From Ochromonas danica (lineage: Eukaryota; Sar; Chrysophyceae; Chromulinales; Chromulinaceae), in the NCBI GenBank assembly GCA_015146655.1, contig VKHL01000104.1, positions 39,536 through 103,535 of the forward strand: 64,000 nucleotides of DNA, written 5' to 3'. Numbering within the stretch: position 1 is the first letter of the stretch; each line of letters begins with the position of its first letter. Of the stretch, positions 1 to 53,700 are shown in pieces. Under the pieces are notes generated by a model that saw only the letters and a list, made by a program, of their open reading frames with translations, was not told the DNA's origin and searched no databases. The position numbers were made by a program, and so were the translations under genes.

Positions 1-3000
1 GTACCCACTGGACTGTCACCTTGTATCAGCGTGCCTTGGATATCAATTCCAACTATGTACTTGCTGGTCACTTGGTTACATTACAAGATCCTGATAGTTT
101 AATGTGTATCACTCTGGAAAGACCATTTCCTCTTGACACCATTGATGCCCCAGTGGTCATGGCGCCCAACCTCAAGACTAACACATTGGAAGGTGGAGAA
201 GGTACAAATCTCTTATGGAGTATCGAGAAGCTTAATGCAACCACTGGTGGGCCTATCTCAGTTGGATCAGATCTGGTGATTCTTCGCGATTTGAATTCCG
301 GGCGATACCTTCGAATTGATGAGGAAGGGGTAGTGGCTGTTCGTCATCGAACCGATGCATCAACCCTAGAATTCTTTCTTTCCCCGAAAAGCAGCAATCA
401 AATTACACCTTTGATTGAGAAAGATTCGTCAATTCTGATCTGCAGTGAGGGACTGTGGTTTGGTCAGGCAGAGAAATCGAAAAACCAGGTCAATGGTTTG
501 TGTGTTGGTCGATCAAATAGACTTCAAGCTGTTTCTTTACAATTAACTTGCATTGATCACAGCACATCGCTGATCAATGTCCATGTTGGCGTCCAGGCAA
601 CGGCCAACTTAAGGCAATTGATTGCTGCAGCAGAAGATTTCGAACGTGGTGTCATTCCTATTAAGGCTTTTGCGATGAATGTCAAAGCGAGTCTATCTGT
701 TTTAGAAAATGTGTGTTCTTTCTTAGCAATGAGTGATACCTCTGTCAGTGATGAAGCAATTGAAATTATGGGATCTTCTGATAAAGCCTCCATCACAGCA
801 CGTCAGAACATGGTGCGTGAACAGGGTCTAGTAGATGCTGTATTGGATGTTTTGGAACTCACTGAGCAAGGAGTGTTTGATTCAATTCAATCTCAGTATG
901 CTCGTTCTCAGAGAGGTAGTAAGAGCAGAAAATCTGCTCATATCGATGATCCCCTCACAGAAGATGAGCTTGATCGAACTGCTCCATTGTCCGCCAAACG
1001 GAAGAGCACTATGCGACGTACTCTTCTATCTAAGTTATCATTAAATAATACTATGAAGAATTTTGAAGAGAAGGGGCTTGGAAGTCCTTTGGCTGGTGGC
1101 AGTTCTCGTGCCAGCAGTAGAAGGAGAAGTGTGTCAGGTTCTGATTCGAGCGCTAAGGCCTCAGAAATGGCGTTGTCAAGACGAATGTCCATGTCAGCAG
1201 GTTTTGCAAATCTTTTAGAGGATGATGAAGAGCCAAATGCAGTGTTCAAGAGTTCTACTGATATTATACGAGAAAGTACTCCAACCTCACAACAAATGGC
1301 TCAGAAATGTTTGAAGGTCTTATTGTGTCTGGTTGTGAACAATTTTGCAACACAACTCTATGTTGCTGATCGTTTGCCAATTGTGTTAAATCAAGTGAAA
1401 GATCACAAACTGGCGGTTCATTGTGTTGAAGAATTGTTGAAAGAGAATCTCACAGTTTTACAAACAAAAGTGAGAGAACGAGAAATAGATATCTTTGTTA
1501 ACCTCTTGGGGAGTTCTGAAATGAGTGTGACCTTCTTGAAGCTCATTCAAAGTACTTGCAGTTGTCCCATGGGTGTTGATGCCACACAGCGTATGGTCAC
1601 TTACGCTCTCTTCGGACATTCCATTACAGAATTGGAGAGGTCTTACTCTGGAACCAGCAGGCGATCTGCTCTAATGCAGTCCATGTCTTTCAAGTTGAAT
1701 GTGAGCAAGATCGCTGTGGATATTAAACCAGGTCCTTTAGCGACATCTCGTAACCTTGTGATGAAGTTGTCCGCCAATCGAGAGAATTTGACCCCTGTCA
1801 CATGGAAAGACTTCAGTGTCTATTGTCCTGAAGATCCCATGGATCATGTTCTTGGATATGCTGAACTTAGCGAAGGATTGCCTGAGATTTATGTTTCTTG
1901 GACTATGAGGGGAATCGGCGGAGAATATTCCATGGAGAGCTTGTTTGGTACTCGTGATAAAGTTCCCCTCATGTCAGTTTGTGCAGCTGCTAGAGCAACT
2001 CTCATTAGTCGGTTTGCAAGAGGAGATGAACAGCAGGGAAAGTCAGGGACAGGAAGTGGGAGAAGGAAGCCATCCATTTTAATGCTTCAAAAGAAGAAGC
2101 CAGCTAAAACTTCTATGCCATCCCATGTTATGTTTGCTGGTCTTCCTGCCGCGACCACAAAGAAAACCCAAGTGGCAGAGTATCTTAACACACAATTGTT
2201 TCTTGTAGCAGATCTTTGTCTGGATCGTAACTACGTGGCTATTGGTATCCTTGAGACCATGTATGAATATGATCTCTTAGTTACGATGTTAAAGATGGAG
2301 ATGGGTATTCCAAGCAAATTTAAAGCTGCTGCATGTCGTATTCTCCGCACAATGTACATTGATCGTGAACCTCATGTTGCAGCTAAATTCCCTCAATATA
2401 TTCGCACTTCTGTATCTTTGGCAGAAGAAGCAGATTATTACTCTGATGGAGAAGAAGCTTTTAAAGCCAATGATCATTACAAATTTGCTCTTATCCAACA
2501 GATTATAGCTGATTATGTGAATGAGGAGCTTGATCCACATAATTGTGACGAACTTTCCGCTGAGATGATGGATCTTCTCTTTGCTCTCGTTAGCTTTGGT
2601 TTCTATGTTACCTCTCCTCAGATTCTTGAAGTTCTACGACCTCTTGTACGCATTCTTGATGAACATCAAAAAGTTCCTGCCAAGAGACTGGCAGCTGGTT
2701 TTGATTCTCGTGCCAACAACCAAAGCAGTCGAAAGTCCGGCTCTTCCAAACCTCGTAATAAGATCAAGTCGTCCAAAGTGGCTGTGTCTACAAAGCCAAA
2801 GAATTCATTAATACCTGGTGATTCTACACGCAAAATGAGTCCTAGTGCACATATGTTTGAACATGTGAAGGAGTCCATCGAAGTGGACAATGTCGCTCAA
2901 TGGCGTAAGGACTTCTTGGCTTTGACGGAGTCTGTGCATTGGTCACTCTTCACTATCTACATTGTCATTGCTTCCATTGTCTTGGTGTTTTATCAAATCC

Positions 3001-6000
3001 TCACGAGATCTAATCAATTTGATCTCTACCTCGCAAGTACAGCGTACTTTGCTTTTGATGTCATTATGCGTATGATGGCGTATAACTTGGTCTATCCTAA
3101 GTTGCGTCGTTTCTTTTATGATCCTTTTAACATTATGGATATTTGTATGGTAATCTTTGATATTATCTTGTTATCATTGGATTCATATGCAAATGATGTT
3201 GGAGCTGGTCGTACTGCGCGAAGCATTCGTATTATTCGTGTGCTTCGTCTTATTCGAGTCTTCCCAGTTGTCAATGCCATCACTCATATTACGCACGATG
3301 AATTTCAAGCTGAGAGTGATGGTTTTGTCACTCCTTCTCGATATCACAATATCCAGCCCATGGAGGTGAGTTCATACAATGCAATGCATAAACATTGTTT
3401 TATTAATAGTTTGGGTTAATTCTTGGGGGTTGACTGTGTGTAACATAGGCAAGAACCATAGTGAATATTTTAAAGATTCTCTCCATGTTTTATGATCGTA
3501 TTCTAGACAAGAAGTTAGGTGAGTGACTGTCTTACAATACACTACTCTACACACTGTGTTCTGATGGTGGGATTGTGTTATTTTGTCTTATAGACTTGGC
3601 TGTCAAGGCATTTTCTCAATGGTGTGATGAAATCAAAAAGAAGAAGAAAAGTGACCCCGTGGCTATTTTAAACAAAATGCTCAACTCAGAAGAAAGTATC
3701 ACAACAGAACTATCATCTAAGTTTGATAGTGTCTTATTAGATGTGGTGATGTATTCCGATACCAGCCTCACTCAACATGCGCTACAACTCTTAATGGTTC
3801 ATAAATCACACAAAGATCAATTTTTACAAATTGCAGAGAAAATCCAAATTGTTTATTCTCCTCGTATTGAAGCCATTTGTAAGAATTTGACTCAGATGGT
3901 ACGTGATTTAAAGAGTTTAGCAGAGATGTTTGAGATTTGGTGTGATTTAGAAAGTGAAGAAGATCAACGATCTGCTCATCGATGTGGAGAGATCTTAGGC
4001 AATATTAAAGGTTATCTCACTAATACCAATGATGATCGTACACTTGGTATGCGTAGTATTGTTTTAGTAGATGAAGAAGTACAACATATTCTACGTAACT
4101 TAGATGCTATGACAGCTTTCATGGCATTATTAGAAGCTTTATATGATGGTGGTCGTGAAGAATTAAGACCTCAAGTAGAAGAGATTATGAGAAGTTGTTG
4201 TGATCTCATTTGTTGGTTTATGAAAAGTTTAGATTCTAATCAAATGGTTGCATTTAAGAATATTGGTTGGTTTATGGAATTGATTGATGCTGGAATTAAC
4301 AGTTCCAGTGTAGTACGAATTATGTTAGAAGGCAATCATGGTAAGACTTTCCCTGTCTCTGTCTCAAACGTTCTCTCTCTTATCTAACCTGCTTCTTGTT
4401 CATTAGCACTGATTAAACAATGTCCTCGACGCTATCTGAATGAATGTGCACAAAAGATTGTCTTATCGGGTCGTAAACCAGAATATCTGGATCTCTTTGT
4501 TGGAATGACAGAATTCTCACGATTTGCTTTAACTACTATTACAGGTGTTGAAGCAGAGATTTCTAGTTATCTTACAGCAAGAGAATGGAAAGAACATGTC
4601 TTACTTTGGTGTTGTTCTTATGATTCAGAAGATTATCGTGAACGTAAGAAGGCTATGCAGAAAGTCAGCAAAAATGCTAACGGTCAAGTAACAGAAGATG
4701 ATCTAACACCTGATTTGAAATATCATTTACGTATTTTAGTCTTATTAGCTAATTGTAATCTAGGTCCAAAGATTCATGCGATATATCCTGTACAAGATCT
4801 ATTACATGCTATTGTTGATCCTGATACAATCTTCCCTGTCAAGAAAGCACTTTCTAATCTCTTAGTAGAAGTTGTAAAATCTTCTATTGATCGTGTTGAG
4901 AAATCAGATTCCTTTTGGCAATTATTAGAAGATATGGCCTTAACATTAGAGACTTTACCAACAGATTATGTGGAATTATCAAGAAGTCCAATTTTACGTA
5001 TACAACGTGGTGAATGGATTGAAATTATTGCTAGTTTGATTGTAAGTTTCTTTGAAGGATATGACTTTGCATTACATCAAGAAAGTCGTGAGAAGAGTAT
5101 TCGTAATCATTCTGCTGATCCACGGGTTATTATTGATCGACTATATAAGGCCATTAAGACTTTAGTTGAATATCATGGTGCTAAGTTAGGCAATGTCTTA
5201 CTAGATGAGTTAAGCTTTGCTCTCTCTTCTCTCAGTTTACATGTTGATATGGAGAATCTAGAGTTAGGTGCAAGTCCTGAACATGATGAAGAAGGAAATA
5301 TGAATGAAGCGAAATTACGTATTATTCGTTTACAACATCAACGTGCAAGTATCATCTATGCAGATGTACAACAAGTTTTCTTTCGTAAACAATTTGGTAT
5401 CTTCTTACGTACAATCAAAGAGATTACACCAGATTCTAGATGTGATGTTGTTACTTTCTTGAATCGTATTCCATGGATTAAAGATGGAATGGCAGAGAAT
5501 GAAGTTCGATTTGAACCACTTCTTAAGAAGCTTAGCACACATTTCCGTTCGATGATTAAACGTAGTGCAACTACACGTACATTAAGTGGTGATAGTGAAC
5601 AAGTCGTCGAAACATGTGAATGGTTATTACGATCATTACGACATCAATTAGAACATGAGATGAAAGCAACATTTGATAATATCACTGATGTAGATATCTT
5701 CTCAGTGGGTCATACAAGTCATTTACATGATTTATGTGTGGCTTTTAATGCTAATGGTATCACCTATCTATGTCTTGATCTAATTTGTATTGGCATTGAA
5801 CCAAGTGTACGTTCTGAAGCTATGCGATTGTTAATTGTTATGTTACTTCGTAATCCCTTGTATAGCACTATTCAACAAACCATCTATACCTATCTATTAG
5901 AAACAGACTCGACACTCTTCTTTGAAACTGTACGAGAAATGATTGAAAATATGAAATCTTGGAGTACAAAAGAGAATGAATCTGAAGCTGTCTTATTAAG

Positions 6001-9000
6001 TCAATTAGCAAATCAAGTGAATCATATTCCAGATGATATTACTGTACTTTACCTTTTACAAGCTTTATGTGAAGGTGAAGATTGTCGTATACGTGATCAA
6101 ATACGTGAACAAAAGGGAAATAGTAAAGTAGTAAATATTATTGAAGCTATTGCTTCTTTTGTAGGAATCTTGTCACATGGTGAGACAATGTCAAGTGCTT
6201 ATGTCATGTCTGTCTTATTACGCGTTGTATTAAGACTTGTACAAGGCCCATGCAAAGGCAATCAAGAAAACTTTGTCTTAAACTCTGAATTATTAATGGC
6301 ATTAAATCGTGTTATTCGTGCATTACGTCCTGCTAACTTACCTTTATCTGCTATTTGGTCACATTACCTGGAAGAAGTGAAAGAACATCTTGTAGAAGTC
6401 TTACGTGGTCTGATTGAAGGACAAGCAGAGAACTCACTTGTCTTTGATCGTGTGAGTAGTACCATTGATGTCGGTGTCTTACATATCCTCATTCTAGCTA
6501 ATAAGAATGATGATAGTTTACTCAAGAAGAATAAAAGTCCTTCTCAATTCCAATCTTATATGAAAAGTCATGGAAATGAAATGAATCAGTTAACTAAAGC
6601 ACAAGCGAAATATTTAGTCTTAACTCAAACACTTGGACGATCTGTAGAGAATTATCAATCTTTATCACGTGTTGATAATATTGAGAAGAATATTGCACAT
6701 GTTGATATTGTCTGGAATCAACGTGTTGAAACTGTACATTTCCCTATCCCAGCTTATGTTAAAGAACTAACAACAACTGATTTAAATGAAGTTGTGGAGA
6801 ATATGGATGATGTAGGTGCATCAAGAGAAATGAAACTAGCAGACTTCTTAACAAGATGTAAAGGACTTTATCAACGACTATTACATCAACAATTATTAAA
6901 GAAATATGGTCTATCTGACTTGTTTACGATTAAATATTATCTAGTACGATTTATGTTTGTCAATGCCTTAGTTATGAGTATTCTCTTATTAGTATTCTAT
7001 GGTACGACAAGTAATGGAGAGAAGTTAACACCTGCTAATGGTAGTGTCCTGTATTATACCTTACAACAAGGTGTTCGAAGACTCTTTGGGGAAGAAGACA
7101 CTATGTCCATGTCATCAGCTTCTCGTATGCTTGAAAGTGATGGAACAGAATATCCACGTGATCCATTATATATGGCACATTCAGTACATAGTGTCTTAGA
7201 TTGTTTGAATATTATTCAAATTATCTGTGCAATCTTTATTCTTCTGATTCTCTCTGTAGTAGAATTACCTGTTACCTTCTGTTCAGCATTAGAAAAGCAT
7301 AAGATTGTTCTAGAAGCAGTCTATTATACCTTACAAGAACCTTTACCAATTTGGTATATTATCTATCTGACTATGACCTTATTAGCCTTTTGGGTTAATC
7401 GAACTTTCATTACAGTTCTGTTATTAGATTGGGTTGTTTTAGATCCTACGACACAAGATGTTCTCTTAGCTATTCGATATCCTGTGAAACAATTGATTGC
7501 TACTTTGATTATCATTGTGATTGTCTTGAATATCTTTAGTAGTGTAGTTTTCGTCTTATATCGTGATCATGTTACAACTTTCCGTATTGTAGATCTATGG
7601 GATGCTTTGAAATTATGTATTTCTTATGGTTTCCGTGGAGAATATGGTGTTGATCATGAGATGGATCCAACACTTGGTGAGCGTATGGTTCTTGATGTGG
7701 TCTTCTACATTGTGGTAAGTATTACTTCTTCTGTTGCTACAACTATGACAGTTTGTATTATTGTCATGTCTTATCTTCTTCTTCTGTCTTGATGATGTTT
7801 CATATATATATCTTATAGGTGTTGTCGATTCTTCGTCATATCTTCTTTGCTATCATTGTTGATACATTTGGTAAATTGAGAGAGTTGAAGATGGAACGAG
7901 AGAATGAAGCATTAAATACATGTTTTATTTGTGGGATTGAACGTCATGAATATGATCGCATTGTCAGTCCTGGTACTGGATTAACCTTTGTTCAACATCG
8001 TTTATACACTCACAATACAGCAAGTTATATCTATTTCATTCTCAATATCTGGCAACAAAATCCATCTGAAGACAGTAGTTTGGAAATCTTCGTACGCAAT
8101 TGTTTGGCTAAGAAAGATGTTTCCTGGCTACCCACTGGCATTTTACAACAAGAGATTCTTGCTGAAGAAGCTGTTCAAAAGCAAGCATTAGGTAAAGATG
8201 GAAGTGGTGGTGGATTAAAGTCTGGACTTAATGGTTCCTCTGGAGGACCTGGTGGGGGAGGTGGAAATGGTGGCAATGGGGGAGGAGGAGGCAAGACCAG
8301 CAAATTGCTTTCATTACATGCTAAGTCAGGTGAAATCAATGGCAATAATGAAAACCACATGGAACTTCTTGATAAGATGAATCTCATGCAAAAGCAATTG
8401 TACAAGATCACCAAGTCTTTATCAGCGACTGAAGGTGGACAATCTCAATACCAAGCCTTACCCAGTCATCCACAACATAATGCTTCCACAGCATCAGAAT
8501 CACCAGCATATTTTGAAAGTCCAAAGTTACCAAGTAAGATGGCCTTAGCTAAGACATCGAGTCCGTCGGAGAATCCCTCCACGTCATCTTCTTTTATCGT
8601 CACACAAGCTTCATCATCTGAACTTTATGCTGCTGCCCATGCGGCAGTGACGAAAGTCTCTGGTGCTGACCACCAAGTACATGTTGTCTCTGCAGTACCA
8701 ACGGAGCCGATGGCAGTTATTATGGAGAAACATCCCAGAAGAAGTGATCCTCCCCCTCCTCAACTCACCAAACAACCTTCTAATGGTCCATCCCAACGTG
8801 AACAAACGGAGAAGATTATGGAATGTTTATCTAATCTTGGTAGTGGATTAACACAAGTTATGGATCGACTTGAGAAATTGGAAAAGAAGTTTATTAAGAG
8901 TCATAAATATCTACGACAACGTATCGATCAAAAGGCATCTTCAACTTATAGTATGGGAAATACTTTGGGTGAGTTGGGTGATAGTCAAACAGAAGAAGAA

Positions 9001-10197
9001 TCAAGTCCTAAGAAGGCAGTGCGTTCTCATGGTTATGCCTCAGCATATGCCATGACAGCTAACACGGATGATTTGCATAGAAGCAAATCAAAGAACAGAG
9101 GAGGATCTTCTGTTGATCCTGTCGTTCAACAAGTGAAGAGTCTATCTATGTTAAATCTTGATGATGCGCCAATCAAAGTGGTGGCTGAACCTGGTCAGCT
9201 TCCACGAGTCACTGAGCAGAGGCCTCGTATTTCTCCACGTGCTGCAGAGGAGAAGAAGTCTTCTTCTCCACGTGTTCCACCTCATGAGGAGAAAGGCAAA
9301 GACCATTCTCCTCGTCTTTCCCACAGAGAAGATGAGAAGAAGCTCTCTCCTAGAGGTGAACTTCCTCATTCTCATGTAGCTCGTGAGGAAACAAAGGATG
9401 AACTTCAACAACAGAGTAATCTCCACCATTCTCTTGATGCAATTTCAAAGCGTGTTGATGCCTTTGGCTTAGGACAAGATATTGAGTCTGAAGATAAAAG
9501 CGTCAACGATGTCAAAGAAGACGAAGACCCTATACTTGGTAGTGAGCTGAATCGTTTAGAAGAAGAGAAAGAAGAAGAAGAAGATCTGGATGAAAAGAGT
9601 GCCGACCAGTCGCATCGTGTCGGAGCAGAACCTGAAGAAGAATCCAAACCTGAGCCTGAAGAAAGTGTTCTTCCTCCATTAGATGCTCTTTCTCCTCCTC
9701 GATCTCCAAGAGCAGCCAAGGAAGTAACTCCAAGACAAGAGATTGTTGTTGAAGAGAAACCCCATCATCACGATTCCGACGAAAAGAAGGAACATCAACA
9801 TCAACAGCAGCAGCAGCAGCAGCAGCAGGAAGAAGTGGCTCCTGCCGAGTCTGAGAGTGTTGCCTCTTCTGCGCCACCTTCCCCTGAGAAAGAGGAAGTA
9901 GTCCCTGGCCAGTTGGAATCAGAAATGGAGTTACCAGCGGGGGGTGCGGGTGAAGTTCCACTTGAAAAGGTTGTTGAAGAAGTGGATGGACCCATTCTCA
10001 TCGAACAACAACAACATCCAACCTCTGCTGGAACAGAGGAGAAGCAAGAGCATACAGAACTATTACCTAGCAACGATGAGAAAACGACGGCAGCTACAGT
10101 AGAAGTGATTGACAATGAAACTCTAGAAAGTGGCAATGAGGAGAAGAAAGAAGATGTCCCTGTACAGGACGAAGTCTCCTCCCACCATGATGAGTAG
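1..10197 (+). CDS. IP3-receptor/ryanodine-receptor-like Ca2+ release channel with an added voltage-sensor-like domain (5' partial)
   Basis: Predicted intracellular calcium-release channel. Exons 3–3365, 3449–3518, 3594–4340, 4407–7714 and 7819–10197 join in one frame (3288 residues in the window); the frame is open to the left edge, so the N-terminus is missing. In order: MIR-like beta-trefoil sequence; RIH domain (residues ~190–560, with RQNMVREQGLVDAVLDVL); an IP3R/RyR central region (CLDRNYVAIGIL, MYIDRE); four membrane segments at 2940–3260 ending in an S4-like helix with Arg at every third position; a second RIH-type region (3594–4340); and a C-terminal pore domain (~6930–7890). S6 and the following IP3R signature (IIVDTFGKLRELK, then CFICGIERHEYDR) are clear. 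The aligned selectivity filter reads GEYGVD instead of GGGVGD. After about 8200 comes a ~650-residue Gly-, Glu-, Ser- and Gln-rich tail. The family assignment is firm. Whether it is gated by IP3, calcium or voltage cannot be read from the sequence. Confidence 0.9.
2940..3260 (+). other. Voltage-sensor-like four-helix module inside the channel gene
   Basis: Inside exon 1 the frame encodes four hydrophobic helices, roughly residues 980–1085 of the partial protein. S1-like: LFTIYIVIASIVLVFYQIL. S2-like: ends FDVIMRMMAYN. S3-like: NIMDICMVIFDIILLSL, with Asn and Asp. S4-like: RTARSIRIIRVLRLIRVF, with six Arg exactly three residues apart. This matches the S1–S4 pattern of voltage-gated cation channels. 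It is separate from the channel's own S1–S6 pore about 3.7 kb further on. IP3R and RyR proteins normally have only one transmembrane domain, at the C-terminus, so this module is additional. Function is inferred, not shown. Confidence 0.8.
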
Positions 10198-12272: not shown

Positions 12273-14880
12273 AGAAGTCAAGGAGGTCTCGACTGCTGCG
12301 GATTAACGTGCTGCTGCTCCCCCCTGCTGCTGTGCACTTCAGACCACGTCACTGCTCTGGCTGCTCCTCTGGCCCAAAGCACTGCCTGGCCCACTCCCCA
12401 GTGCAACATTACAACAAAAACACAGCACAGCCCCATCTGTGGCGCCTCACTCATTCGCATTCTGCACTCACTGGAAGTGCCATACAAGTAGAAGATCTTT
12501 CGGTCTGTCCAATATATGCTCCCCCACTCCCTATATGATGATCGACTTGGATGACTCGCTGAGGAAAAGAAAAGGTCAGGAGATTTTATCCTCGGGTTGT
12601 AACAAGAAGAAACAGACAGCAGCATCGTGTTGCGACGAGGCTTCGCTCCACTCTTGTCCTTGTCTCGAGCACTATCAGAGATTCTTCGATGAGCTTCTTC
12701 GCGCCATCTCGGATCACAGCTTGGTGAGAGCACAAAGGGTGATGGAAGAATATTGTGCTGCTGATGTGGTGATGCAGAGCACTTACTGGAGCCGAGGAGC
12801 TGTCCCTCCAGCCTGTGGGACGGCCCCTGCTTCTTCTGGCGATCCCTCTCCTTTGACTAGAATAAGTCTCGCGAATGCGCAGAGTTTGGAAGAGAGTTTG
12901 CATTGTCTGGCGGATTTCTTGGAGTTGGGCAGGGAGTTGTGTGTATCTGCTCGGAATGGAGGGAAGATGCGATTGGGCAAGAAGAGCGATAGTCCAGCAC
13001 ATGCTCCCTCTTCATCTTCTCTGTCTTCTTCTTCTTCTTCTCCTTCCATGCTGTCTTCATCCTTGTCATCCACACTATTGCGTGGAGGAGAGGAGGGGCA
13101 GGAAGAAGGAAATGATTGGATTGGTCTTGGCAGTGTTCATGTGGAGGGTCGAATAGGTGTTGGGGTGAGAGAGAGGACATCGAATCGATGCTCTTTGGAT
13201 TCGGCTAAGCAGCAGGGACATGAGAAGAAGAACATTAAGAAGGAGAAGGAGAAGCAATGGTCATCTTCGACATCAGCTGGAATGACAACGAACGGAAGCA
13301 GGGAGGGAGAGGGTGGAACGACGCTCAGTGAGGCCTTGCTTGGATTGGCTCCCACTTCTGTAGCTGAACCATGGAACCTTCAACGGACGTGTCAAAGTCA
13401 CAGCATGGCGGACTCTTCGATGTCGGTTCCATCTTCCTTGACATTGTTGCTGTCAGACGCCCAACAAATGCATTTGACTCGGCCAGAAGGTTTGTTAGGG
13501 CTGTCTGAGGGAGACGAACCCCGTGAACAAGAACCAAAACAAGAAGAAGCTCCTGCAGGAGTCAACTCCAAGCAAGCGGTAGGTGAGCAAAGGAGTCGAA
13601 GGCAAGGAGGAGAGTTCAGTAGCGAGAAGAGGGAAGATGGACCTCGGATCATGAGAGAGGCCGACGCGGGAGAATATGATGAGAGAGGAGGCTGTGGAGG
13701 AGGACTGCGTTATGTACCGGTGAGGCTGAATGTATGGCTGATCTTTCATCGTGAGAGCATGAGGCTACAGATGGAGTCGTCGTCCCAGGAGAGTTTCCAG
13801 ATCAAGAAGATTGAGATCCACTGCTATGACAGCACAGACGCTGCAAGCATATGCTGAAAGAAGAAGGTTCGTCTCCCTTGCATCTATTAGTTGATGGATC
13901 TTTGGAGGAGCAGAGGATGACATCCATGTGAGCATATTGGAGGATATGAGTGAGAAGACTTATGGAAGGCTGCTGGATGGAGGAGATGACTGTGCGCTGG
14001 GCGATATGACGAAGTCTTCGTTGTTGGTGTTGACATATTATTATATTGTTCTCATATTGATTATGATATTCATTTAGATCTGTTTATCTATCCTTGCCGA
14101 ATATATCTAGAGCCGTTCATTGTCTGGTAGTTTTGTCGATCTGCTTGCGTAAGTTGGTTAGCCTCCCTGGTGTGACTGATGATTGAGGGTTGGTAGAATG
14201 AAATGAGAAAGAAGATGAGACAGAAGGGGAAGGGAAGCCAGATCTGTTGTTTTTCTCTCCATCTCAATCACTTTAGCATGAAGGAGCCTCTCCCGGTCTG
14301 GCAGCTGACTGTGCGCCACTCTGCAGTCAGACAGAAAGAAGGACAGACAGACAGACAGCAGGGAGTAGCTGAGACAGCACATGGGAGTAGCGTCTGATAG
14401 CAGAACTCAGTTGAGGAGGTTGGTGGAGAGTTCAAGGAGATGTGAAGCTTCCCATATGAAGCACACAAATCCCTCAACTTCCACTACAACAGACTGACTG
14501 AAAGAGAGAGTCAGGTCTGTCTGTGAATTTGAAGAGTAGGTTCAGAAAGTCTTACGCAAAGATAGGTGTGGAAGAAGTGATGGATCAAAAGTGGAGCTTG
14601 GAGAAGTGTAGTGGCTCTCCTTTCTGTTGGGTGGAGAGGAGGAAGGAATATCGTTCTCTGGTTCTTGGCGGAACAATCGATTGTGGAAGGCAGGAACCAC
14701 TAGGAAGTGATCATGATGGGTCAGCCTTTGCATTGACCTTCCCAGACCTTCCTATGCTTGCATAGATCGCTGACATTCTGTTTCAATCGCTGGTGGATTG
14801 CAATCTGTTTTCATCCATTGACATGAAGTGGTTGCGTACTGAAGGACTTTGGGAGGTTAGGGGTTTGGGATTTGGCGATA
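12273..14880 (+). repeat. 2.6-kb tandem unit, copy 1
   Basis: Matches 15406–18013 at a constant offset of 3133 bp. I see one substitution near the left end (G at 12291, A at 15424) and one at the right edge; otherwise the copies read as identical. The left boundary of copy 1 is lost in the N gap. Copy 1 is followed by ~525 bp of unique sequence before copy 2. Confidence 0.9.
12535..13857 (+). CDS. Hypothetical protein with a possible split NTF2/SnoaL-like fold, copy 1
   Basis: About 440 residues from the double Met at 12535; the frame is open further upstream but that part looks untranslated. A basic start (LRKRKGQE) and Cys-rich stretch come first. A helical segment follows, HYQRFFDELLRAISDHSLVR, then MEEYCAADVVMQSTYW, which looks like the opening helices of a SnoaL/NTF2-like domain. 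About 250 residues of Ser-, Gly- and Glu-rich low complexity come next, then a beta-like end (YVPVRLNVWLIFH, then IKKIEIHCYD) that would suit the strands of the same fold. The resemblance is weak and unproven. No intron is needed, though one inside the low-complexity part is possible. Confidence 0.5.
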   Translation: MMIDLDDSLRKRKGQEILSSGCNKKKQTAASCCDEASLHSCPCLEHYQRFFDELLRAISDHSLVRAQRVMEEYCAADVVMQSTYWSRGAVPPACGTAPASSGDPSPLTRISLANAQSLEESLHCLADFLELGRELCVSARNGGKMRLGKKSDSPAHAPSSSSLSSSSSSPSMLSSSLSSTLLRGGEEGQEEGNDWIGLGSVHVEGRIGVGVRERTSNRCSLDSAKQQGHEKKNIKKEKEKQWSSSTSAGMTTNGSREGEGGTTLSEALLGLAPTSVAEPWNLQRTCQSHSMADSSMSVPSSLTLLLSDAQQMHLTRPEGLLGLSEGDEPREQEPKQEEAPAGVNSKQAVGEQRSRRQGGEFSSEKREDGPRIMREADAGEYDERGGCGGGLRYVPVRLNVWLIFHRESMRLQMESSSQESFQIKKIEIHCYDSTDAASIC

Positions 14881-15405: not shown

Positions 15406-18013
15406 AGAAGTCAAGGAGGTCTCAACTGCTGCGGATTAACGTGCTGCTGCTCCCCCCTGCTGCTGTGCACTTCAGACCACGTCACTGCTCTGGCTGCTCC
15501 TCTGGCCCAAAGCACTGCCTGGCCCACTCCCCAGTGCAACATTACAACAAAAACACAGCACAGCCCCATCTGTGGCGCCTCACTCATTCGCATTCTGCAC
15601 TCACTGGAAGTGCCATACAAGTAGAAGATCTTTCGGTCTGTCCAATATATGCTCCCCCACTCCCTATATGATGATCGACTTGGATGACTCGCTGAGGAAA
15701 AGAAAAGGTCAGGAGATTTTATCCTCGGGTTGTAACAAGAAGAAACAGACAGCAGCATCGTGTTGCGACGAGGCTTCGCTCCACTCTTGTCCTTGTCTCG
15801 AGCACTATCAGAGATTCTTCGATGAGCTTCTTCGCGCCATCTCGGATCACAGCTTGGTGAGAGCACAAAGGGTGATGGAAGAATATTGTGCTGCTGATGT
15901 GGTGATGCAGAGCACTTACTGGAGCCGAGGAGCTGTCCCTCCAGCCTGTGGGACGGCCCCTGCTTCTTCTGGCGATCCCTCTCCTTTGACTAGAATAAGT
16001 CTCGCGAATGCGCAGAGTTTGGAAGAGAGTTTGCATTGTCTGGCGGATTTCTTGGAGTTGGGCAGGGAGTTGTGTGTATCTGCTCGGAATGGAGGGAAGA
16101 TGCGATTGGGCAAGAAGAGCGATAGTCCAGCACATGCTCCCTCTTCATCTTCTCTGTCTTCTTCTTCTTCTTCTCCTTCCATGCTGTCTTCATCCTTGTC
16201 ATCCACACTATTGCGTGGAGGAGAGGAGGGGCAGGAAGAAGGAAATGATTGGATTGGTCTTGGCAGTGTTCATGTGGAGGGTCGAATAGGTGTTGGGGTG
16301 AGAGAGAGGACATCGAATCGATGCTCTTTGGATTCGGCTAAGCAGCAGGGACATGAGAAGAAGAACATTAAGAAGGAGAAGGAGAAGCAATGGTCATCTT
16401 CGACATCAGCTGGAATGACAACGAACGGAAGCAGGGAGGGAGAGGGTGGAACGACGCTCAGTGAGGCCTTGCTTGGATTGGCTCCCACTTCTGTAGCTGA
16501 ACCATGGAACCTTCAACGGACGTGTCAAAGTCACAGCATGGCGGACTCTTCGATGTCGGTTCCATCTTCCTTGACATTGTTGCTGTCAGACGCCCAACAA
16601 ATGCATTTGACTCGGCCAGAAGGTTTGTTAGGGCTGTCTGAGGGAGACGAACCCCGTGAACAAGAACCAAAACAAGAAGAAGCTCCTGCAGGAGTCAACT
16701 CCAAGCAAGCGGTAGGTGAGCAAAGGAGTCGAAGGCAAGGAGGAGAGTTCAGTAGCGAGAAGAGGGAAGATGGACCTCGGATCATGAGAGAGGCCGACGC
16801 GGGAGAATATGATGAGAGAGGAGGCTGTGGAGGAGGACTGCGTTATGTACCGGTGAGGCTGAATGTATGGCTGATCTTTCATCGTGAGAGCATGAGGCTA
16901 CAGATGGAGTCGTCGTCCCAGGAGAGTTTCCAGATCAAGAAGATTGAGATCCACTGCTATGACAGCACAGACGCTGCAAGCATATGCTGAAAGAAGAAGG
17001 TTCGTCTCCCTTGCATCTATTAGTTGATGGATCTTTGGAGGAGCAGAGGATGACATCCATGTGAGCATATTGGAGGATATGAGTGAGAAGACTTATGGAA
17101 GGCTGCTGGATGGAGGAGATGACTGTGCGCTGGGCGATATGACGAAGTCTTCGTTGTTGGTGTTGACATATTATTATATTGTTCTCATATTGATTATGAT
17201 ATTCATTTAGATCTGTTTATCTATCCTTGCCGAATATATCTAGAGCCGTTCATTGTCTGGTAGTTTTGTCGATCTGCTTGCGTAAGTTGGTTAGCCTCCC
17301 TGGTGTGACTGATGATTGAGGGTTGGTAGAATGAAATGAGAAAGAAGATGAGACAGAAGGGGAAGGGAAGCCAGATCTGTTGTTTTTCTCTCCATCTCAA
17401 TCACTTTAGCATGAAGGAGCCTCTCCCGGTCTGGCAGCTGACTGTGCGCCACTCTGCAGTCAGACAGAAAGAAGGACAGACAGACAGACAGCAGGGAGTA
17501 GCTGAGACAGCACATGGGAGTAGCGTCTGATAGCAGAACTCAGTTGAGGAGGTTGGTGGAGAGTTCAAGGAGATGTGAAGCTTCCCATATGAAGCACACA
17601 AATCCCTCAACTTCCACTACAACAGACTGACTGAAAGAGAGAGTCAGGTCTGTCTGTGAATTTGAAGAGTAGGTTCAGAAAGTCTTACGCAAAGATAGGT
17701 GTGGAAGAAGTGATGGATCAAAAGTGGAGCTTGGAGAAGTGTAGTGGCTCTCCTTTCTGTTGGGTGGAGAGGAGGAAGGAATATCGTTCTCTGGTTCTTG
17801 GCGGAACAATCGATTGTGGAAGGCAGGAACCACTAGGAAGTGATCATGATGGGTCAGCCTTTGCATTGACCTTCCCAGACCTTCCTATGCTTGCATAGAT
17901 CGCTGACATTCTGTTTCAATCGCTGGTGGATTGCAATCTGTTTTCATCCATTGACATGAAGTGGTTGCGTACTGAAGGACTTTGGGAGGTTAGGGGTTTG
18001 GGATTTGGCGATG
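15406..18013 (+). repeat. 2.6-kb tandem unit, copy 2
   Basis: Second copy of 12273–14880. Homology stops abruptly after 18013, where copy 1 continues ttgctcggttgg and copy 2 continues ttgcaaggtgga. Confidence 0.9.
15668..16990 (+). CDS. Hypothetical protein with a possible split NTF2/SnoaL-like fold, copy 2
   Basis: Same protein as the copy at 12535–13857; I see no amino-acid difference in the 440-residue frame. Complete identity over 1.3 kb means either a very recent duplication or gene conversion, or the same locus assembled twice. Neither copy carries a stop or frameshift, so both could be functional. Confidence 0.5.
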   Translation: MMIDLDDSLRKRKGQEILSSGCNKKKQTAASCCDEASLHSCPCLEHYQRFFDELLRAISDHSLVRAQRVMEEYCAADVVMQSTYWSRGAVPPACGTAPASSGDPSPLTRISLANAQSLEESLHCLADFLELGRELCVSARNGGKMRLGKKSDSPAHAPSSSSLSSSSSSPSMLSSSLSSTLLRGGEEGQEEGNDWIGLGSVHVEGRIGVGVRERTSNRCSLDSAKQQGHEKKNIKKEKEKQWSSSTSAGMTTNGSREGEGGTTLSEALLGLAPTSVAEPWNLQRTCQSHSMADSSMSVPSSLTLLLSDAQQMHLTRPEGLLGLSEGDEPREQEPKQEEAPAGVNSKQAVGEQRSRRQGGEFSSEKREDGPRIMREADAGEYDERGGCGGGLRYVPVRLNVWLIFHRESMRLQMESSSQESFQIKKIEIHCYDSTDAASIC

Positions 18014-33517: not shown

Positions 33518-36500
33518 ATGTTATATAAAGGCAAGTATTGGATAATGAGTGTAATTGTCTCAGATGTTATTGAAAGAAGAAGTGATTGCATGACCAAAAA
33601 GAAGATACCATCATGTCCTGTCAAGGCCATCTATCCTCATTCAATGTCTCTCTCGGAATATCTCACACTTCTTCTGCCACAGTATCTCATTCTTTACAAA
33701 GATGTGGATCCATTAGATTTCCAACATTTCCTGCAGGAAACTAAAGTAGTGCCTCCAGCTGAAGAAGAAGTGCAGTCTTGGACATCTCCTCCTCCTCCTC
33801 CTCCTGTGCATAGAATGGAAGGTCTGCATGCTGACCCTGCTTCGTCATCATCGTGTGACATGCGAGAGATGCTAAATCGTGCTATTCCTCATCTTCTTCG
33901 TTCACAACAACAGCAACAACATCGTCTTCTGACTCGTGATCAACAAAACTGTCTAACACTTGGCTATCGTCCTAAAGTCATGAACTCTCATGTAGTCATG
34001 AGGAATAGTATGAATGTGGAGGCATTCTTTGTCAACTCCGTCGCTAGTCTCTTCGAAAATGATCATTGGCAGAGACTTGTGGGGAGAATTGGAGAAACTG
34101 CTTTTCGACATTTACTATCTAATCGAATCTATATGAAGACTGTTCATGGGAGTTACTTACAGGTAGAGTGTATTGATCATCATCATCATCATCATATCAT
34201 CATCATGATGTATCAACAACCCCAAATGACTTGTTTTCATGTGTTAGATGTGTGGACCAACTTGTGTTGATCAGAATAGTCTTTACTTGGTTAATAAAGG
34301 TATCAAGAGTGGTGTGTCAGGAAGTACGACTATTCTTAGACATCGTATGCTATACAATACTCGTCGAGAAGGTGCTGGTTTACCCAAAACCTTTTGCTTT
34401 TTCAAAGTAAGTGTTCAGTATATGGAAGCACCGCTGTTTATCTTCTTTGCAAAGATCGATAAACCTTATTCTATTGTCTCTATTAGAAATCACTGGATCA
34501 AGTTGTTCAGGACATATTCGGATCTGAACGTTTGCCACAGAATGCTATTTTGCTTCCAACTCTTATCAATTCACTGTCTTCCTTAGTCGATCGTATGAAG
34601 AAACGATATCTTAGTTATGACATGGCAGCTGCAATGAGGAAGTTCTGTCATACCTATGCAAGTGAAAGCTATGATGTCTCTGAGATACATGGCCAAGAGG
34701 AACAGAAATCACCAGCAAAGAAGAAGACGAAGAAGCGAGGGTGTCGAGCTGGACAACATGTCCAAGACAATAAGAGACGACGCATGGCTCGATATTTGAC
34801 ACCTGAACAACGACAAGAACAATTTCCACAGCTATCACTTCAGCTTCAGTCAAAGTCTCATCCTCAACCCACACAGTCGTCTACACGTCCTAGTCCTCTG
34901 TACAAGTCTACTCCTCCAGTCATTCCTCTTGGAGATAAGCTGTTAGAGAATATGCTACACAATGTATCCAAGGACACATCCAATCAAAGTCAAGGCTATG
35001 CAACTCAAGAAGCCAGTCAACTTCTTAATGTCGACCTTGCTCTGGAACAGTATCGTGATGTACAAGTTGGTGGACAACCAAAAGAGAATCATAACAAGAG
35101 CAGCACAGTACGTCAAGGGATAAAGAGAAAGTTTCAAGCTCTGTTAAGTAGGCCTACCCCATCCAAGTCAGTTTCTGCTAGTCAATCTACAAAGTGTTCT
35201 GAACCAAAACAACAAATCGAAAACTCGTCTCGTTTACATCAACAACATCTACAAGATGATAGTGGACTGCATTTTCATTTGAATCGTCCCTTCCTCACTT
35301 ATGTAAGATATCGATCATTCTTATGAGTCGTCTATTGCTGTTATGCTGATAATGTGTTGAAAACATCATCTACTAGGTGGAGACTGAAGGAGGTATTCAT
35401 AGTGTGTGCACAGAAGTCAATAACAACAACAACAATGGAAATGAAGGTTTCCCTCTTTCCACCTCCTCAGACATTCCAGCAGTAGATAAGACAGTGAAAA
35501 TCAATGAGAAAAGAGAAATCTGGGAAAAGGCAATCCATCTCAATTGTGTGTTGGAATTGGTGAAGTCAATCTCAGGTCATGTATTTAGTTTGGAAGAGGT
35601 TTGGGGAAGTAGACACAATTTCAATCTCTTTATGAGAAAGATTGACATCTATCTCTCACAAGGACGTCAAGAATGTTTGACTTGTGCACAATTAGCATCA
35701 GGTATGCGTCTATCAGAGATGATTTGGTTAACACAATGGAAGGACAGATTACATCATAATAACAATCACCATCATCATGATGCTGCTACTACCACTACTA
35801 ACACTACCACCACTAACACAGCTACTAGTCAACAGAAAGACAAGAAAGAAGACGAACATCCAGAGAACAATAGCAGTAAAGCAATACAAGTCTTAGCAAA
35901 TGAACAATCATTAAATCTATTGCATTGCTTCCTTTATTTCATCTTTAATGACTTTATTAATAGTCTGGTCGGACAAACTTTTTATGTTACAGAAGTTGAA
36001 GGTCAAGGTTTAACATTGTTTTATTTTCATAAGAGTACTTGGTTTAATATGGTGAAGGATCATATGGAAGACTTCAAGAATCAATTCATTCCGGTATGAT
36101 ATCACTCTCTTTCGCTCTCTAACAGATGTATTGATTAGAGGTTAATGTTATGTTGTTGTGTTATGTTTAGTTATATTCCATGTCAAGACCAGGTCAAGAG
36201 ACAACATTTCAATCAATTGTCGTTCATCTTCATCCTCCTCCTCCCAGCATATCCAAATCACCTTCACGTACTATTGGTGGTGTTGTTGGTATAGCCTTAC
36301 CTGTTGAACCAAGTCATCCAACAAGCACTACTAGTCGAGGAGAATCGGTAACTGCTAGGTTTCCTCCTTCTGTTAGGGAAGTTAGCTCTCAAATGGTTAC
36401 GAACAATGGCAGTGGGAGTGTTAGAGCTACACCACCACCACAACTACAGCCTCTTCCTCCTTCTACCTCTGTGCTGTTTAATAAGCGGTTATCTTCTCTT

Positions 36501-39500
36501 CGTACTGACAGACCTCCCAATCCATCAACTGGTTCAAGGGAATTCTCTGTATTGACTCGTACGTCTAGTCTACCCAGTAGCTTATCTTATAGTAAGAGTA
36601 GTAGTAGCGGTAGTAGTGATATCAAGAGTAGTGATGTTGCTAGAGGAGTGTTGAGGACATCTAGTGGTGGAGTAGCTAATGATAGTGTTCTCACTGACCA
36701 AACTCTCGGCCATGGTGGTAGTGGTAGGGGTGGTAACAGTGGTAACAGTGGTAACAGTGGTAACAGTGGTAATGGTAGTGGTAACAGTGGTAATGGTAGT
36801 GGTAGCAGTGGTAGTGGTAGTGGTGGATCAGCCCTCATGCAACGTTCTCGGTCTTTACCCACTACATCGATCTCAACTCGACCTTCAGCGGGTGGTGGTT
36901 CATCTTCTTTATTTAATGCAAGTAGTAGTAGTATATCCAGCCATCATCGACCTTATTTCCCTCCGCTGACCTTCGACTTAGCCCATCCGTCCTCTAGTTA
37001 TCTTCGCCATGCAGTACCTGTTGTGCGCTTTGTCCCCAAGAAACAAACTGTACGAGCGATTGCTAATTTACGGATGAGAACCAATCATCATACACATCAT
37101 ACAATAGCAGGCTCATCATCAAGTGGTGGTAATCCAACAATCATCCCCAGCATGTCATCATCTTCATCGTCATCTTCATCGTCATCCTTACCAACTTTAG
37201 CACCACCAGCAGGTACAACAACAACAACAACAGCGGCAACAACTGCACCTGCTTGTGTTGTTAGTAACAATATGTTATATAATACTTTACATGTACTTAA
37301 AGCAATCTATGATCAAGTTCCATCATTAGGTGGATGTGGTGTCTTTGGTGCTGATGATATCTATCGTAAACTACGAGCTTATAAACAAGGTATAAAGAAG
37401 AAATATGGAACTAGCAATCAGAATGTACAGTTTTATATAGCTATTCTAGATGTTGAGAAATGTTATGATCATGTTCGAACAGATACTGTATATGATATTA
37501 TACAACATATTCTACGTTTCTATGGTCAACCTGGTCATGGTGAAGATGCTCTTATGAGATTAACGAGTTCATCTGAGGTGTATAACTCTCTTAATGAGAA
37601 GCTAACTAAAGCCTATAGCCATGGTGGCAGTGGTGGTAGTGGTAATAGTGAGTATTCTCAGCAGAGGACAAGTCAAGGGAATATGTTTAATCTCAGTCGT
37701 GGTAATAGTGTTGGTAGTGCTAGTTTAGCAAGTCGTGATGAACCTATTATCATTCATAAATATCAAATTATACATCCTCAGAGTAGAATTGTCTCAACAA
37801 CTCAACTAACAACTCTTCCTATCAATCATCACTCAAAGAAGAGGAAAGATAAGGATTGTCATGATGACAGAAGCAATAAACGAAAGAGTACCAACGGTAG
37901 CAGTAACAGCAGTAGTAGTAGTTGTCATGTCCATGATCAACAGCAACAACAACCTTCAGTAGGAGTATTTAACAAACCTGTTCGTTATGTCAATCTTATG
38001 GGAGACTTACTCCCTTTTGCTGAAGCAGGGAAAGCAATAGCTCAAGTTTATTCATCTAGTATGATCTCTGATAATGTGATTTACAATCAAGTCTATGTAG
38101 ATGATATCTTAAAGTTAGTGAGACAACATCTCTTTGGTCATATTGTACGTATGCCACTTCCATATAAACATCCTGGTAGTCGTGGTCGTCATGGTAGTTG
38201 TTTCTTTGGACAAGTTCGTGGTATTCCACAAGGATCAGTTCTCTCAGCTTTACTTTGTACAGTCTATTATGGATATATTGAACATCAAGTTTTCCATTTA
38301 AATCAATTTCCACAGTTATTAGTTAATGACAGTAGAGATGGATCAAAACAGATGAACAAGGAAGACAATGATGATGATGATGATGACGATGATGATGATC
38401 CATTAGGATTAAACAATGGTGACTCATTGTTACTAAGATGTATGGATGACTATTTAATGATCTCAGTGAAACCAAATCATGTCGAATCATTTCTAAACTC
38501 TGTCTTTACTACCTATCGTTCAGATTATAATATTCGTGTTAATCTACCAAAAGTGAAAGTTAACTTTCCTGTCAAAGTTCATGGATTACAAGGAGAAGAC
38601 ATTGTTTTCATGCCTCCTCCTTCTTCTCCTAGCCACCTTGACTCATCTAGTATACACAAGGAATGTAATAAGACTTCTTTGATGTCATGGTGTGGATGGT
38701 TAATTGATTACAGTAATGGTGATCTACAAGTTCGACCTGATTTTGATCGTATTATCAAATTAACACCAAGTATATCATCTGTTCCACAATTAAGACAATT
38801 AAAGAAAGTTGTTTGTAATTGGATTCGTATGAAATGTCATGCATTGATTCTTGATTGTCATAGTGATGGATTGAATCAAAGACAGACAGTGTGGGAGTCT
38901 CTATATCAAGTTTTTCAGATTGCTGCTTATCGTATGGCTGTGAGTGTGGATAAGTATCTTCATCAGAATAGAGGGTCTATGATATTACAAGAGCGTTTTA
39001 TTCGTCGTGTAATTCGTGAAAGTATTGTCTATGGTGCTCGTTTGGTACAAAGGCGTAGTCACAGTCGAATGATTCATGAGGAAATGTCCAAAAGTCGTCG
39101 ATTCTATCTGAATTTACAGGAAAGACGAGATGATGAAGATAGTAGCGAAGAGCTATCTCACGACGACGACGACGATAATGATGATGAGGATTGTGAAGAA
39201 GATCAAGGAAGTCATGGTCATACCACAACTGATGGCCATACCACTAACAATGAGATCAAGGAAGAAATCACGTTAAAAGAGGTAACCTATCTTTTTCTGT
39301 GAATTGTGTGGTCTTGTAGTAATCTGTGTTGTTCTTCTATTATGTAGGCAATGTTGATCGGTTGGTCTGCTTTCTGTCATGTTGCCAATGCAATGCAAAC
39401 ACGATCTTTCCTTCATCAACCATCTGTAAGGTCTTGGTTAGAGAGAGAACGTGATAAGGTGAAAGTTGATATCACATCTTCAAAGAACGATTCCATTCCT

Positions 39501-50712: not shown

Positions 50713-53700
50713 ATGAAAAGGTTATTCGCAGGATTTATTCGAAGTGGTTCAGACAGTAATGAATCTTCTCTGAAAGTTGTGACATCCAATAACAATCTAC
50801 CACCCTCTGAATCTATTGCGACTTCTACAACAACACCACGTCGTTCTTCTCTTCTTCGTCGTGGAATCAGTCGCAAGGCTTCAGGAGGAGTGCCAGCTGA
50901 TAATGTGCCAACATTGATTACCAATGCAGCAGCTACCTTAGCAGATGCACTACAAGAGATTGTAGGTGATACTACGAAACTATCAGGTGAAAACACAAGT
51001 GGATATGAGACATTACTGTGTATCTTGAATGATAACACGGATTTGGATGAAGTGGGGGAGATCTTGCAAGCCAATGGCATGGGCTGTATACATCTCCTCA
51101 TGACTCATCTTGACCATCCTAAATTCGTTGAATTATGCAGTCCAGTAGCCTTAGCTGCTGGATTATTTCAAGCATTACGGTTATTAAGAATGTATGAGAT
51201 CAAAATAGCCAAAACACAATTTGAACTGTGTATGGGAGGACAGTCTTCAGTAGCCGCCAACTCGCAACACAGTAGTGGTGTATCTCCTTCTATTACGATA
51301 CCTCCTTCTTCTTCTGCAAGCAGTACATTTGATGCGAGTTATAAGATATGTAAGATCTTGGAGAAGCTTTGTTCTCATTCTTCTGTTATTGAACAAATTC
51401 GAGCCAATTTAGTGAAGATTTTGACTTTCCCACTTTGTATCCTACCTTTACAAGGAAAGCATATTCAACAACATGCAGCTGGTGTTGTGCTTAGCATTTG
51501 TAAGACAGGCTTCACTTCACAGCAAGTTTGGTATCTTCATGATGTCCAATGTATTACCCATATGATTCGTCATCTCCATGAATTGACTACTGTGGCTAAT
51601 TATTCCCCTCTCAACTCTTCTCTATCACGATCGCCGTTGAACAATGCAACTCCAATTCGTCCCGTGTCGTTAAATTCCACAGAAGTTGGAAATCCAAATG
51701 CTGCCACAGATTATCTGTTAAGAGGACTAGCGGCAGAGACAGAAGGCATGTGGACAGTAGCTTTAGAGTGTTTTGTTAGAGTTCTTGCTGCTACAATTTC
51801 TATTGGATCCGTTTTATTAAATGATTTCGAGGCAGCTTTTGGTAATAAGCTCTTAGTTACCATTCTGAGGACTTCTTCCCCACAGAGATTTCTTAATGAT
51901 TTCAATATCATCACACAATTGCTCTTTGATCCCAATCGCAAAGAAGTAAATACACAACAAATTTTAATTCCTATTGCATCTACAGTACAAGATTTCCTTT
52001 ATGATGTGTTGGGTTTAGCAGCCTATTCTTCAAGTGGTTCATTGTTACAAGGGAAGACTGACATTGAAAGCTTGAAAGTGATTAGTGAGAAGATTCTTGA
52101 CTCTAGAAAGTCTTCTCATTTGCATGCTTGTGAATATATGATTCAAGGAATGGCTTATTCATTGCTCACAATGTATTCTAATGAGCCTATAGCATGTTTG
52201 GAATTAGAAGAAAGTTATCACTTCCTTCCTCTCCTGTTACTTTCTCTCCCTGCACTCTCCCAGACAGAAGTTATGTCAGCTGTCTTAACTACATTGAATT
52301 ATGTTTGTCAATGTATTGAAATACCTTCTATGATGATTATTAAAGCTCTATCCGCTGCTGCAGTTGTTGTTGTGGAGCGATTTCTAGAGAGTAACAACTT
52401 TGCACAAGTCATAACTTCACCCCATGCAGCAGAGAATTTAGCGATAGCAGATCATCAAATACAGCAGATGGAACTCATTTTCGTTTCTATTGAGGCGATC
52501 TGTCGAACTAACAAGAACTTTGTTCTTCAATTTTTGAAAATAGATTTATTTAGTTTTATTCTCAAAGCTCCTCTTCTCAAGTTTCAATATGATCTACCCA
52601 AATCTTTATCCTTATTAACAGAAGAGCCTATTAGCTACCAAGTCAATGCGAAATATCTGATCTTTTATGAACGTATCCTTTTGCTAGTCATGGAGTTGAA
52701 TGAGAAGAATGGATTAGCTGCACAATATCTCAGTGGTGCAGATTCTCCAACCTATATACTGGATATTGCCAAATCAATTCTTTTACAATATCCATATCGT
52801 TCATTTGAACAGAAGATAGAAGAACGAGGTAGCAATAGTAGTCATAAAAAGCGATTCCATCTGAGGTTCTTTTTAGTGCTGTTAAGGTGTTATGAAGAAC
52901 TTGCTAAAGCAGATGGTGATTGTCTATCTAATATTGTCATGATCTTACGCGATTTGATCTTAATCTTGGGCAGAGAAAGTCCTGAGAAAGTCAGTCATAT
53001 TTATAACACATTATGGTCGATTTGTATAGTCAATGAAGGTTATCATCGAACTTTCCTTTCATTGGATATGGTGGAAACAGCCATCTCTACATTAGCACTT
53101 GCTAAGCAAGTCTATGCGACAACACAATCGAAATCTTCTGACCTCTCGCTAACATTCCATTGGACTTTATGGTTTCAGTGTATTACGTCAGTCTTACGCT
53201 ATTTATCCATTCTCCTCTTCTATGCCTTTGAGAATGATTACAATGCTCGCTCATATCAAACCATCTATGGACGAGTTGCTCAAGTTTTGATTGAGACTGG
53301 AATCTTCACTAACGCTACCTATCGATTTCCCGCTTTAATTCTCATTTTACGATTTATAACGGTCTTCTCCAAAGATGAAGATATTATATACACCAAGTCT
53401 TTGGATATGTTGGCAGTTCTTCTGCCTAATTTGCCCATTGATTTGTTGGTTGTGCTAATTCGAAAACTTGAGAATTATACTCGATCGAACAAAGTCAATC
53501 TCAAGCGTATAGGAGATAATCATTTGCTGTCTAATTTGATTCATTCATTGAATGGATGTAGCAGTATTGGTAACGATGATTTTGAGTTGGTATTACCTCG
53601 AGCATTTGTAACATATTGTGTGAACAACAATTGGCATGCTGATACTATGATAGAAATTCTCCGATCTTGTGTCAAAAGACTGATGTTATCCAATGGTTCT

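Follow-up and report, generated by a model that had tools for sequence, protein, structure and literature searches.

Can a calcium-release channel of the inositol trisphosphate (IP3) receptor/ryanodine receptor superfamily (IP3R/RyR) carry a second, voltage-sensor-like domain within the same chain? The question is raised by a gene of the chrysophyte Ochromonas danica, here called gene A, most of which lies in a window of 64,000 nucleotides (contig VKHL01000104.1, hereafter C104, positions 39536-103535) in an assembly of 31.2 Mb and 337 contigs. A sequence-only reading of the window had proposed a calcium-release channel with a separate voltage sensor. At the level of architecture the answer is yes: the presence of an S1–S4 domain inside an IP3R/RyR-superfamily protein is confirmed and well supported. 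The part of the proposal that stands is therefore a separate, canonical-looking S1–S4 domain in one superfamily gene, whereas voltage sensing and its coupling to the pore are what we infer from it.

The domain, which may be described as voltage-sensor-like, spans amino acids 1204-1315 of the predicted protein (window positions 2940..3275; all features of gene A are on the forward strand). The S1 helix (2940..3008) was placed by helix assignment and hydropathy, and S2 (3015..3083) contains Y1239, F1240, D1243, and R1247. S3 (3126..3182) carries the pair N1267-x-x-D1270, and S4 (3210..3272) holds six arginines at residues 1294, 1297, 1300, 1303, 1306, and 1309, followed by a proline at 1312. The exact every-third spacing that had been claimed for these arginines is thus borne out by the translation; when the whole protein was shuffled 2,000 times, a run of at least six at this spacing came up once. 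Pfam matches the domain to Ion_trans with E 5.8e-9 and 7.5e-9 in two scans, at profile positions 4-110 of 241. As the match ends at position 110, it covers S1–S4 only and includes no S5-S6. When a query of 162 amino acids taken from this part of the protein was compared with the PDB, 85 distinct sequences fell within an E limit of 1, CaV3.2 ranking first (E 2.8e-13); the best 60 of the 85 include the voltage-sensing phosphatase Ci-VSP (E 8.7e-6), NaV, Kv, and CatSper. Taken on its residues, the domain bears the hallmarks of a voltage sensor, namely an aromatic residue and an acid in S2, an aspartate in S3, and arginine at every third position of S4.

The physical picture of the domain is less sharp. 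In a hydropathy scan of the protein (19-residue Kyte–Doolittle window, threshold 1.35), S1, S3, and S4 were flagged, but S2 was not, so that of the four hydrophobic helices originally described, three pass and S2 is not strongly hydrophobic. Hydropathy alone is nonspecific for this domain because several helices of the solenoid pass the threshold too. Two single-sequence structure predictions gave four main helices at low confidence (pLDDT 51.9 and 58.2) with packing that is not reliable, and fold searches with these models returned weak structural matches only. If the four helices are inserted in a membrane, both flanks are left on one side of it, and the loop charges (net +2 between S2 and S3, net -2 between S3 and S4) match the expectation for a voltage sensor with both ends in the cytosol.

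The surrounding gene has the domain order of an IP3 receptor. Gene A is modeled as five exons giving 3,512 amino acids without a stop, once the window is joined to the contig upstream of it: the ATG stands 670 bases upstream of the window's first base, and the gene ends at 10197. The coding exons occupy -669..3365 (position 0 counted), 3449..3518, 3594..4340, 4407..7714, and 7819..10197, and all four introns, including those on either side of the short exon 2, are GT-AG. The splice sites are predictions from frame, consensus, and homology. Exon 1, of which 1..3365 lies in the window, encodes Ins145_P3_rec (PF08709, E 4.3e-30), a first RIH domain (RYDR_ITPR, PF01365, E 3.7e-8 on exon 1; 1257..1610, C104:40792-41145), the helical region, and the entire S1–S4 domain. 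The latter is hence in frame within exon 1, as the earlier reading had it, and the frame stays free of stops over its full length. A second RIH domain follows in exon 3 (4067..4339, C104:43602-43874; PF01365, E 5.6e-6), and both RIH domains were also located by the genome profile search. Exon 4 encodes RIH_assoc (6041..6307, C104:45576-45842; PF08454, E 3.1e-13) and an IP3R/RyR-type C-terminal channel domain with hydrophobic helices and a pore (6941..7714). Exon 5 supplies the end of the last pore helix, a C-terminal zinc finger with the CxxC...HxxxxH motif of the IP3R/RyR C-terminal domain (7921..8013, from translation and alignment with ITPR2), a long low-complexity tail, and the stop codon. 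Profile searches with Ion_trans, RIH, and MIR had been recommended; the first two exceed their cut-offs in gene A, and MIR falls under it (E 0.0011, 19.4 bits against 25.6).

Comparisons with the PDB agree with this order at both ends of the protein. Exon 1 matches ITPR2 with E 5.8e-36, and the last helix with the zinc-finger domain (7819-8217) matches ITPR2 with E 1.7e-14. A query from RIH_assoc to the pore (5900-7714) found RyR chains with whole-sequence E 1.5e-5 and weaker, no single stretch passing by itself. Pfam Ion_trans makes no call on the C-terminal channel, which is recognized by hydropathy, the RyR match, and alignment with four paralogues, B to E. The IP3R/RyR-like C-terminus of the sequence-only reading is upheld by this alignment together with the zinc-finger and RyR matches. 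Pfam found neither SPRY nor RyR-repeat domains in those frames of A–E that were scanned (for B, D, and E, the exons farther upstream are not included), which does not speak for a ryanodine receptor proper. Judged by homology, which at the superfamily level is not in doubt, gene A is an IP3R/RyR-superfamily member over its length.

The place of the insertion within this fold can be narrowed down. Residues 942-1114 of A, just before S1–S4, align with ITPR2 720-898, and the flanks of the corresponding domain in B align with IP3R1 722-902 and 1059-1133. In a study of IP3R1 (PMC9663519), the helical domain is given as E693-L1102 and ARM2 as L1103-G1567, with motions passing to the HD-ARM3 interface. 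Set against these limits, the alignments locate the insertion inside the helical domain, in the part of the chain that leads from the ligand-binding region to the following solenoid. In A, the linker before S1 is about 90 residues long, and that from S4 to the point where conserved sequence resumes about 20-30.

Further evidence that the arrangement belongs to the gene comes from its paralogues. A genome profile search returned five RIH_assoc sites and ten RIH sites, that is, two per gene in five genes: A on C104 and, on contig C3, B (117.0 kb), C (57.2 kb), D (106.8 kb), and E (272 kb, minus strand). In the alignment of the five, S1–S4 occupies the same linker in A, B, and C, a short non-matching stretch is found there in D and E, and the flanks are common to all. 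Ion_trans at this site is over the cut-off in A and B (profile positions 6-110 of 241 in B), under it in C (20 bits, E 4.3e-4), and absent in D and E. Against the PDB, with an E limit of 0.1, the domain of B found 23 sequences (best E 0.0033), every one of them named as a voltage-gated-type channel; that of C gave weak matches with an unrelated transporter on top, and the Ion_trans profile search of the genome, with its 26 matches, did not pick it up. B has S1–S4 and both flanks in a single uninterrupted frame of 2,369 amino acids, and C has its weaker version and both flanks in one of 2,552. These frames need no splicing assumption, and they make a chance fusion of neighboring genes very unlikely. 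On the every-third register of S4, the six arginines of A run without a gap; B reads K, R, R, P, R (four charges, one of them Lys, with a Pro gap) and C reads R, R, T, R, L, R (four charges, two gaps).

A search of the whole genome with the S1–S4 domain of A at E up to 0.01 gave two matches, itself and that of B (E 4.3e-5, 29% identity over query positions 8-105). Its nearest relative in this genome therefore sits in another release channel, and the two domains most likely share one origin. A and B are about 28% identical and have no exact 40-mer in common. In a five-taxon tree with no outgroup, B, D, and E group with support 100. D and E pair weakly (support 46) when near-identical columns are left out, B and E pair (support 84) when they are kept, and the branch of A is by far the longest (1.7-1.9). 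The simplest history would be one ancestral insertion followed by one or two losses. Relatives were not found in scans of viral and prokaryotic DNA collections, an absence that says nothing about other algae. As a separate observation, B, D, and E (C3:117-125, 106.8-114, and 272-264 kb) share tracts of identical DNA, 860 bases between B and E, 719 between B and D, and 740 between D and E, and outside these tracts their proteins are about 44-50% identical. Such a pattern suggests either that gene conversion took place very recently or that the assembly produced it.

Pore and ligand-binding residues were compared among the five paralogues as well. The selectivity filter of the superfamily is GGGxGD-like. 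B (GGGIGN), D (GGGIGD), and E (DGGVGD) come close to it in the alignment; C (MSGVNN) and A, which reads GEYGVDH at 7637..7657, do not. The CxxC of the zinc finger is present in all five paralogues and the second His pair in four; in C the last HN is replaced by QN. Six IP3 contacts were compared (R504, K508, R511, Y567, R568, and K569, with the second-trefoil positions 267, 269, and 274 left out), as listed in PMC9663519. Only R511 is kept in all five; R504 is kept in E alone (Lys in D), and K508, Y567, R568, and K569 are kept in none. With most of the compared residues lost, canonical IP3 gating is unlikely in A–E.

The reading that we favor, with somewhat more belief than doubt, is that the A-type protein would be a voltage-modulated calcium-release channel whose S4 is tethered to the solenoid leading to the pore. 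An S1–S4 domain would have entered the helical-domain linker of the ancestor of the five genes, to be kept in A, B, and, in weaker form, C and lost in D and E. S4 would move with the membrane potential, and the short segment of about 20-30 residues on its C-terminal side would act as a tether, pulling on the solenoid and so biasing pore opening, the canonical IP3 switch having been lost. Little voltage is generally assumed across the membrane of the endoplasmic reticulum (ER), and the sensor would for this reason be best placed where the plasma membrane contacts the ER, in the plasma membrane itself, or else in a voltage-holding membrane of another kind. A more specific version, which we consider unlikely as it stands, puts S1–S4 in the plasma membrane and the C-terminal pore in the apposed ER or another store; a tetramer with four sensors would then bridge both membranes and open the store on depolarization. 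The linkers on either side of the domain and its position in the cytosolic cap are compatible with such bridging.

Several observations weigh against the voltage-modulated channel and have to be set beside it. S4 charges are uneven among A, B, and C, and D and E manage without the domain altogether. The filter of A is aberrant, which casts doubt on conduction by A, and the best S4 (A) is paired with this odd filter while the near-normal filter (B) is paired with fewer S4 charges. For functional work, B is the better test object of the two. The leading rival draws on the first two of these points as well as on the low confidence of the structure models. According to it, the inserted S1–S4 is a membrane anchor or docking module without voltage sensing, which tethers the cap to a membrane or binds a partner, and the arginines of A are partly a relic. 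Arg-poor S1–S4 domains are present in many TRP channels, and IP3R/RyR proteins themselves have one at the C-terminus. A, however, has the full hallmark set in S2, S3, and S4, the top matches of its domain are voltage-gated calcium channels, and six exact arginine repeats would be hard to keep without selection, so that the anchor is a serious possibility, though a doubtful one. That A is instead a decaying or regulatory paralogue without Ca2+ conduction, serving as a voltage-sensing subunit in heterotetramers with B–E, would suit its filter when compared with those of B, D, and E, the silence of Pfam on its C-terminal channel, and its long branch. It is nonetheless quite improbable, given an intact frame of 3,512 amino acids and the conservation of RIH_assoc, the last pore helix, and the zinc-finger motif.

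Still less credence is given to two explanations that would change the nature of the domain or remove it from the gene. A pore-less S1–S4 is also the plan of the proton channel Hv1, as PMC10377628 describes it, and the inserted domain might then be a permeation pathway fused to a release channel. The S4 motif given there for protist Hv1 is RxWRxxRxxH. The S4 of A is without Trp, and its S1 span is without an acidic residue, whereas Hv1 has an Asp in S1; an Hv1-like channel was rejected on these grounds, and Hv1 chains are not present among the best 60 of the 85 PDB matches. Scarcely any weight at all attaches to a gene-model or assembly artefact by which S1–S4 would stem from another gene or a mis-joined contig. 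The gene A model was built from genomic sequence, and long identical tracts such as those among B, D, and E can confuse assemblies, but B and C, which lie on a different contig, each carry the domain and its flanks within a single open frame, and in the alignment the divergent A has the domain exactly where B has it. A two-gene artefact was rejected on these single frames and on the position common to A, B, and C. An ordinary exon of a voltage-gated channel (CaV, NaV, or Kv) was likewise rejected, as S5-S6 are missing and S4 is followed by solenoid sequence shared with D and E. No phosphatase domain was matched by Pfam in the scanned frames of A, which leaves a voltage-sensing phosphatase aside.

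The favored voltage-modulated channel can be compared with several described systems. IP3 receptors (ITPR1-3) share with A the order Ins145_P3_rec, RIH, helical region, RIH, RIH_assoc, C-terminal channel, and CxxC/HxxxxH domain; they differ in having no extra S1–S4 in the helical domain, and contacts 508, 567, 568, and 569 are changed in all five paralogues. RyR has insertions between its N-terminal and later solenoids. Together with CaV1.1 in muscle excitation–contraction coupling, it offers a possible functional parallel, in that a release channel is acted on by a voltage sensor, but in muscle the sensor resides on a protein of its own in the plasma membrane. Ci-VSP/TPTE proteins, with Ci-VSP among the matches to the domain of A, join a pore-less S1–S4 to a non-channel effector as A does; their effector is a phosphatase, and the S1–S4 of voltage-sensing phosphatases is N-terminal, not mid-chain. 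Among protists, oomycete ITPR homologues and PKDRR proteins are IP3R/RyR relatives with added domains, which in the portions available of PMC7399828 and PMC4820453 comprise ankyrin repeats, a VirB10-like domain, and RyR domains on PKD channels, and no mid-chain voltage sensor. Paramecium CRC-I to VI, as presented in PMC3213138, resemble A–E as an expanded protist family of release channels with altered domains; they differ from A in having their transmembrane helices in the C-terminal part with a six-span topology, and the main text consulted makes no mention of voltage. IP3 receptors have further been reported in brown and green algae and not in diatoms, as stated in PMC11085791.

Other features of the genome and window were recorded in passing. 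The chlorophyll-binding family has 47 matches in a profile search of the genome, and the host is therefore photosynthetic; one light-harvesting query matched the multi-domain LHCI chains of 9vfj best in the PDB, with XLH12, FCPI, and VCPI chains lower, which hints at an alga with chlorophyll a/c but does not place it firmly. A short 18S pattern gave no match. Beyond gene A, a run of N inside the contig (12088-12272) is followed by an open frame of 516 amino acids that occurs twice, at 12307-13857 and 15440-16990, about 3.1 kb apart and identical over all 1,551 bases; its first copy has no Pfam match. A frame of 1,043 amino acids (36171-39302) matches the telomerase reverse-transcriptase C-terminal extension (E 7.8e-7), with RVT_1 just under the cut-off (E 1e-6), and is a probable TERT. 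Farther along, a frame of 3,347 amino acids without a Pfam match at E 0.001 (50713-60756) is followed by a BEACH/WD40 frame (60929-63391; BEACH E 4.3e-108), and the former may form the N-terminal portion of a single large BEACH protein.

In animals, two proteins, CaV1.1 and RyR1, together tie the release of stored calcium to membrane voltage. Both the superfamily and the domain described here are known, and their combination was not found in the literature searched: no voltage-sensor domain inside an IP3R/RyR was met there, subscription journals being mostly outside its coverage, which, within the same bounds, agrees with the earlier reading, to which no described channel of this kind was known. 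If the favored reading is true, another eukaryote put voltage sensing and store release in one chain, and the two-membrane version would amount to a single-chain analogue of CaV1.1-RyR1 coupling. A release channel would then join the effectors attached to S1–S4 domains, and the protein would offer a compact system for studying the voltage control of store release.

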